Source of the DNA: a virus | Length of the DNA: 25,098 nt | Direction: 5' to 3' (one strand) | IMG/VR virus record: IMGVR_UViG_3300042361_000040 | Location: 1-25,098 of that record | In this document: in pieces, positions 3,224-3,556 of the stretch | Layout of the letters: each line of letters opens with the position of its first letter | Position numbering within the stretch: the stretch's first letter is position 1 | Program-made: the position numbers and the translations under genes | The notes under the pieces: model-generated | What the model saw: only the letters and a program-made list of their open reading frames with translations | Told to the model about the DNA's origin: nothing | The model's database searches: none

Positions 3224-3252
3224 AGTATACTACCTTTGGTGGGATTTGTCAA
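3224..3252 (-). promoter_or_regulatory. Strong sigma70-type promoter of the 2529-3119 gene
   Basis: On the - strand: TTGACA (3247-3252), 17-base spacer, TATACT (3224-3229). The inverted repeat TCCCAC (3212-3217) / GTGGGA (3239-3244) again has 21 bases between the arms, as at 2314-2346. The 25 bases 3206-3230 equal 2308-2332 exactly, while the rest of the spacer differs, so the -10 and operator arms appear selectively conserved. Confidence 0.85.
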
Positions 3253-3556
3253 GGGTTTGTCCCATTTGTTCCGCTAATGTTCCGTATTGTTCCATGTGGT
3301 CGGAACATTATGTAGCCCATATTCTATAAGGCTTAGCGGGTTATATTTATATAATGTTCTATTGTTCTATACAACTACAAAACCCTTTTTGAAGTTTAAA
3401 TCAACACTATGCAAAGGGGGTCTTGCAATCCCGAAAAAATAAAATTGCCTAAAGTAAAAGTTCGAACATTAGTACAATTAGAACATTGCTTATAAATCAA
3501 GGACTTAACATAGAACATTGCAGAACATTACAAGAACAATATAAGGGTTTGTCCCA
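3251..3556. other. AT-rich non-coding region with mirrored iterons; candidate origin or multi-site control region
   Basis: No gene. GAACATT or its complement occurs at 3276, 3303, 3353, 3464, 3481, 3513 and 3523, and GAACAAT or its complement at 3286, 3361 and 3534 (plus a TTTGTTC at 3265). The left trio (3265, 3276, 3286) and right trio (3513, 3523, 3534) are inverted relative to each other, with the same 3- and 4-base gaps, one helical turn apart. The middle (about 3340-3480) is AT-rich. A 14-bp direct repeat AAGGGTTTGTCCCA bounds the region (3251-3264 and 3543-3556). Iterons plus an AT-rich core fit an origin bound by an initiator, or an array for a regulator. No initiator gene is in the window. 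Confidence 0.55.

Follow-up and report, generated by a model that had tools for sequence, protein, structure and literature searches.

The window analyzed here, a 25,098-base IMG/VR virus record, holds in about 300 bases of a freshwater phage genome two mirror-image rows of one short word around an AT-rich middle. From comparison with related genomes, we consider this array to be probably the origin from which a lytic phage lineage replicates and, with a little less assurance, we favor a DUF927 PrimPol-helicase as its binder. An open-literature search found no paper on this array or on an origin in these phages.

Architecture of the array and its surroundings

On both strands together, the window contains 20 GAACAWT words, 10 of which fall within 265 bp (3276–3540), the clustered repetition of one short word that is typical of iteron-type replication origins. 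This clustering is far above chance: positions 3251–3556 hold 10 words compared to a mean of 0.135 and a maximum of 2 in 1000 shuffles, and the densest 272 bp in 200 dinucleotide shuffles of the window held 1.4 words on average and 3 at most. An initial sequence-only reading would have been undermined if the same heptamers had been equally common elsewhere, but half of all copies sit in this one place.

The array comprises ten exact words (3276−, 3286−, 3303+, 3353−, 3361−, 3464+, 3481+, 3513+, 3523+, and 3534+), bearing out the ten GAACATT/GAACAAT-type sites listed in that reading, plus two variants. From left to right, an outer-left trio on the minus strand with words 10 to 11 bp apart (TTGTTCC variant, AATGTTC, and ATTGTTC; 3266–3292) is followed by one opposed plus-strand word (GAACATT; 3303–3309) at a position common to many relatives and, after about 50 bp, by an inner-left minus-strand pair with 8 bp spacing (AATGTTC and ATTGTTC; 3353–3367) that is nearly invariant in an alignment of ten sequences. 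Beyond a centre of about 100 bp lie an inner-right plus-strand row with 8 to 9 bp spacing (3464–3487; GAACATT at 3464, a degenerate GTACAAT at 3472, and GAACATT at 3481), an IHF consensus site, and an outer-right plus-strand trio with 10 to 11 bp spacing (GAACATT, GAACATT, and GAACAAT; 3513–3540). One relative (L014) has an intact third word in the inner-right row, and a central block, CACTATGCAAAGGGGGTCTTGC (3405–3426, plus strand), recurs in relatives with a GAACA word. The previously described pair of trios stands with one adjustment, as the right trio is exact throughout while the left one consists of two exact words and a one-base variant at 3265 (GAACAAA); their mirrored spacing of 11/10 and 10/11 is confirmed, and the inverted arms (3266–3297 and 3508–3539) are 78% complementary. 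The central distance seemed helically phased when redundant arrays were counted, but no phasing remained on 14 distinct values (p ~0.67), and the window's own value (150) is a scoring artefact of the degenerate inner-right word. LexA-type boxes (GTTC-N7-GTTC) were likewise set aside, their spacing fitting some outer words only.

The proposed AT-rich separation of the trios is real, with an A-T content of 66% in 3251–3556 versus 54% in the window, and the most AT-rich 40-mers (82.5%; starts at 3341–3343, covering 3341–3382) adjoin the inner-left pair as a candidate unwinding segment, which is the arrangement expected beside the repeats of an iteron origin. Between the inner and outer right iterons lies the IHF consensus site AATCAAGGACTTA (3495–3507, plus strand). 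The IHF consensus, WATCAANNNNTTR, is found in 31 of 40 arrays, whereas 100 shuffles averaged 1.66 and never exceeded 6, a figure that overstates independence since the 40 arrays are kin; they were chosen visually among loci in which an array could be seen, with the decayed locus L013 added. These consensus matches correspond to the architectural-protein (IHF/HU) sites of iteron origins. Plus-orientation sites are found in 14 arrays and minus-orientation sites in 20, and their spacer bases are many and different, suggesting that it is the IHF site itself that is kept among related arrays. The array contains no DnaA box, and a single match with one mismatch lies at 3641. A change of cumulative GC skew at the array, proposed earlier as a check, is not what we see: the minimum of the window falls at about 4.5 to 5.5 kb, away from the array, and those of two long relatives lie 1.8 to 2.3 kb from theirs, where transcription diverges. 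We set GC skew aside as proof of an origin because it is confounded here, as gene orientation alone could explain the minima.

Genes left of about 4.4 kb point leftward, and the structural genes point rightward (probable terS at 5002, terL at 5600, portal at 7149, and capsid at 12342). The array is placed between two leftward genes, A (2529–3131, minus strand; 200 aa) and its distant paralogue B (3777–4388, minus strand; 203 aa), while the probable terminase small subunit (5002–5607, plus strand), so named by position and look without a clear family hit, is a rival candidate for binding the array. The two best sigma70-type promoters around the array, absent from the sequence-only account, both face outward: a leftward one, TTGACA-17-TATACT (11/12; 3224–3252, minus strand), upstream of gene A, and a rightward one, TTGACA-17-TATGCT (10/12; 3568–3596, plus strand), which is retained in close relatives. 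The 14-bp direct repeat AAGGGTTTGTCCCA reported to bound the array is indeed exact on both sides, at 3251 and 3543, but we reject it as an origin boundary. Its left copy (3251–3264, minus strand) lies against the −35 box of the leftward promoter and its right copy (3543–3556, plus strand) just upstream of the rightward one; a third promoter (2354−) has a related sequence and no iterons, and relatives lose the repeat while keeping the array. Judging by this placement, the repeat belongs to the two outward promoters.

Several local features are recorded in their own right. An imperfect palindrome, GACAAAGTG..CACTTTGTC, is found in four copies beside promoters and leaders (2263–2290, 2450–2480, 3149–3182, and 3620–3647) that are possibly operators; those that were folded as RNA are not clearly stabler than shuffles. 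Another palindrome, TTATGCTCTG-N3-CAGAGCATAA (3590–3612), spans −10/+1 of the rightward promoter and is retained with paired changes in L006 and L008. Downstream of this promoter (3568–3777) there is no plausible same-strand ORF, and it points antisense into gene B, possibly giving a small RNA. Rfam and tRNA searches for structured RNA gave no hit, and RNA folding of the predicted rightward transcript and of two leaders showed nothing remarkable (z −0.16, −1.98, and −0.58). The leftward promoters at 2326–2354 and 3224–3252 have a nearly identical leader start (AATAGAGTGGGAATTCGCC), which suggests a duplicated promoter-leader unit. The divergent gap upstream of terS (4764–4860) carries C-runs and a CCCCCCGGGGGG palindrome, and two consecutive genes (22364–23329 and 23496–24587) both match tail-fibre family phrog_4492, probably by duplication.

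The array and its word in related phages

Searches with gene A or terL retrieved 90 loci, 25 of which (on 22 contigs) have at least 4 GAACAWT words in 300 bp. Other relatives carry a different word at the same locus, so that the words across relatives comprise GAACA, TGAACA, GAATAA, GTAAGA, TATAAGA, TATTAGA, TGTTAG, and GTAACA with architecture and place constant. Same-locus examples are AGTGAACA (L046, L047, and L050), TAAGAA (L056 and L067), GAATAA (L069 and L075), GTAAGA (L195 and L197), TATTAGA (G060 and G061), TGTTAG (G062 and G073), and GTAACA (G071). Of 30 terL loci with 3 kb or more of upstream sequence, 26 carry an array made of one of these words at the same place, a number that is a description and not a test as the words were chosen after seeing the same data. 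The order of word directions is shared as well, starting with − − − + − − in 19 of the 40 arrays. No match to gene A was found in seven of these array loci whose sequence extends several kb further left (L018, L020, L027, L035, L037, L077, and L084); the array is therefore not tied to its neighbour genes, and gene A is probably outside the system. Both A and B were discarded as candidate array binders because each is missing from array-bearing relatives.

Short-word arrays also occur in more distant phages related by terL, portal, and capsid. Near terS, 023Pt_psg01 has GGCACA and HTVC023P has CTAGGAAA at 8 to 11 bp spacing, with no exact IHF consensus in these arrays. The candidate initiator described below had no match in HTVC027P, HTVC023P, 023Pt_psg01, and DSL-LC04 over the parts of their records that were searched, and a whole-collection search with the initiator protein did not list these four among its matches. 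Instead, 023Pt_psg01 and HTVC023P encode a separate AEP primase and a UvrD-type helicase, known for HTVC023P from record annotation only (primase and ATP-dependent helicase). The pelagiphage arrays may either be origins of another initiator or indicate that this type of array predates the initiator.

A candidate initiator and the inheritance of the word

The sequence-only reading had called for a replication initiator encoded further left. None is found inside the 25-kb window, but 8 of 10 related records encode a DUF927 primase-helicase, and the other two records are fragments (40 and 23 kb). This 945-aa protein (Pfam DUF927, E 9e-33; PHROG primase/helicase, 1e-42) closes the early arm of the long relative G001 (66.7 kb), and the distance from array to gene is about 17 to 26 kb in G001, G002, and G007. 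Going by these relatives, the initiator of the window phage most likely lies beyond the window.

An AlphaFold model of one relative's initiator (42 sequences; mean pLDDT 83.8, pTM 0.54) depicts a PrimPol domain joined to a helicase whose fold resembles those of SCCmec Cch and SaPIbov1 Rep. Among the matches listed in the fold searches, which included Foldseek, residues 1–204 align with the S-2L PrimPol domain (Z 20.4, rmsd 2.0, 174 aligned) and residues ~360–930 with SCCmec Cch (Z 31.0, rmsd 8.5, 487 aligned) and SaPIbov1 Rep (Z 27.5, rmsd 10.4, 462 aligned), the large rmsd of the helicase half probably reflecting several domains that lie differently. By our reading of the model, the last 80 residues appear to form a winged-helix pattern, so that the modelled proteins of relatives combine the MCM-like AAA+ core and C-terminal winged helix of the SaPI Rep/Cch type. 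SaPI Rep reads iteron origins via its C-terminal domain and Cch2 binds AAGTG direct repeats through its own (PMC7581432); primase-fused DUF927 proteins have been predicted to be replication helicases of mobile elements (PMC5862659).

A full initiator is present in 38 genomes, 32 of which have an assignable word; the 6 lacking a clear word (G023, G024, G054, G056, G063, and G065) were excluded from word counts, and the initiator of G031 is truncated. In 29 genomes, after exclusion of G007, G032, and G071 for want of a full terL, the initiator tree requires 6 word changes, which is the minimum, and the terL tree 10. For the 28 genomes that also have polA (without G010, which has no polA match), the initiator, polA, and SNF2 trees each require 5 changes (minimum 5) compared to 9 for terL, with bootstraps of 5–6, 5, 5–6, and 7–9, respectively, and a mean of about 14.5 for shuffled labels. 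On these trees, the word follows the replication genes more closely than it follows terL, though terL is far nearer to the array. Since polA and SNF2 track the word equally well, the initiator is not singled out.

At one position of the recognition helix, the 10 genomes with GAACA-containing words have an aliphatic residue and the other 22 of the 32 with an assigned word have Tyr, a pattern noticed after the fact. The lone TGAACA genome (Val) neighbours the GAATAA clade on the backbone tree but resembles the GAACA clade in both its word core and its aliphatic residue. We downgraded covariation of the winged helix with the word by pairwise identity, as there are few independent events and a tree of the C-terminal part does no better than one of the whole protein (6 versus 5 changes).

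Two outgroup phages share replication genes. Pseudomonas phage Rollin (OR577172) has matches to the initiator (32%), polA (35%), and SNF2 (40%), whereas the terL, terS, portal, and capsid of the window have no detected relative in it and its own terL belongs to another PHROG. Its unannotated gap at 260–679 contains eight TTGCATA words, arranged as three minus words on the left, three plus words (9 bp) on the right beside an AT-rich run, and then one minus and one plus word, together with an IHF consensus at 324. A palindromic repeat of 25 to 26 bases, AAAAGGTAGTAACTTRCTACCTTTT, is additionally seen at 392–417 and 473–498 of OR577172.1, with related copies at 1–70 of the record. Rhizobium phage RHph_TM27A matches 6 of 6 replication queries and 0 of 4 structural queries, and the 45.9 kb of it that was examined holds two IHF consensus sites, both inside a less regular ATTATG/ATATGT cluster.

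Proposed mechanism, alternatives, and comparison with known systems

The AEP-primase/MCM-like helicase (~945 aa), encoded at the far end of the early arm 17 to 26 kb away, would bind the words via its C-terminal winged-helix domain, and each mirrored arm would collect several copies. IHF would then bend the arm and bring inner and outer words together so that two helicase rings could assemble face to face, the AT-rich DNA beside the inner words would melt, and the fused primase would start both forks. We infer initiator binding, word recognition by the winged helix, the two rings, melting, and origin activity alike. The earlier suggestion of an origin is the reading with the most support, gaining from the conserved mirrored array with its IHF consensus and AT-rich segment, from co-inheritance with replication genes, and from a PrimPol-helicase of predicted SaPI Rep/Cch fold encoded in the relatives, while the displaced skew minimum does not favor it. 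Also against an origin are the similar short-word arrays of pelagiphages without a matched initiator, the 6 of 38 initiator-bearing genomes with no clear word, the missing helical phasing of the central distance, and the array of L013 (6879–7157), which has decayed to 6 GAACA words compared to about 12 in most relatives despite a 98% identical terL, with the central block kept.

Were the array instead a packaging initiation site, the terminase small subunit would bind the words and IHF would bend the DNA as in lambda cosB, which has three R sites and an IHF site. We regard this as unlikely: the mirror symmetry is more in keeping with a start in both directions than with packaging in one, terL fails to follow the word (9 to 10 changes), and Rollin and RHph_TM27A have arrays or word clusters with IHF consensus without a detectable relative of this terL or terS. 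Yet an IHF site beside a trio of sites is lambda-like, the array lies about 1.5 to 2 kb from the probable terS-terL, and pelagiphages with related terminases carry their short-word arrays upstream of terS. What keeps packaging in contention is the TerS tree (TerS located by position in 29 of 29 genomes), which tracks the word nearly as well as that of the initiator (7 changes, with bootstraps of 6–8, versus 6, which is the minimum).

A phage repressor or activator on the words might also control the two outward promoters, possibly by looping, and near-consensus sigma70 promoters that face outward, one of them retained in close relatives, would suit such a role. However, words and promoters do not overlap, there is no plausible gene within about 1 kb downstream on the strand of the rightward promoter, and 9 to 14 closely packed words with an AT-rich centre are unusual for an operator. 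The array is also kept where genes A and B are missing, so that the repressor loop offered as an alternative in the sequence-only reading has become less likely and a regulatory array in general seems quite improbable to us. We give hardly any credence to a partition or site-specific recombination site of parS or attP type: mirrored short sites around an IHF site are known from P1 parS and lambda attP, but a Phage_integrase domain was found in 0 of 18 relatives' records and no partition gene among a chosen subset of G001 early-arm proteins that was scanned.

Returning to the origin with its PrimPol-helicase, its most general form would be that widespread environmental phages start replication at mirrored, IHF-bent origins read by a one-protein PrimPol and SaPI Rep/Cch-like initiator, with the word re-coded at least five to seven times and the architecture kept; we put this forward tentatively, at slightly below an even chance. 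If true, an origin would be located in a large group of uncultured freshwater phages structurally related to the abundant HTVC023P-type pelagiphages, and SaPI Rep/Cch-type self-loading initiation would extend to lytic phages as a single primase-helicase protein. The re-coded words would form a natural series for reading the winged-helix recognition code, the code by which such helicases recognize origins could be tested with eight natural origin words on one architecture, and a cultured system would be available in Pseudomonas phage Rollin.

Phage P4 replicates from ori and crr with its alpha protein, a primase-helicase initiator, and iterons containing GAACA. Unlike P4 with its ori and crr, neither G001 nor G002 has a second GAACAWT cluster. 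The origins of iteron plasmids and of lambda share direct-repeat initiator sites, an AT-rich unwinding element, and assistance by IHF/HU (PMC10797057), but here there are two mirrored arms with inner (8 to 9 bp) and outer (10 to 11 bp) rows, and the array lacks a DnaA box. Cch2, which has a putative iteron origin, is of a different family, and only three iterons were found for it. SCCmec Cch (DUF927; PDB 5dgk) is a DUF927 helicase and the best structural match (Z 31.0), though its solved chain aligns to the helicase half only, without primase, and the SCC origin adjoins the gene. In SaPIs, the origin adjoins rep, whereas the array lies about 17 to 26 kb from the initiator gene rather than directly downstream; as this gene is not adjacent and binding is putative, we do not class the array as a SaPI Rep/Cch origin, though the two would be alike in working. 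Compared to SaPI origins, the initiator here is fused to an AEP primase, IHF sites are present, and the element is a phage rather than a satellite, but the short iterons of SaPIs are read by a self-loading MCM-like helicase through its C-terminal domain, and the candidate initiator is predicted to share the helicase fold of SaPIbov1 Rep (PDB 8tch; Z 27.5).
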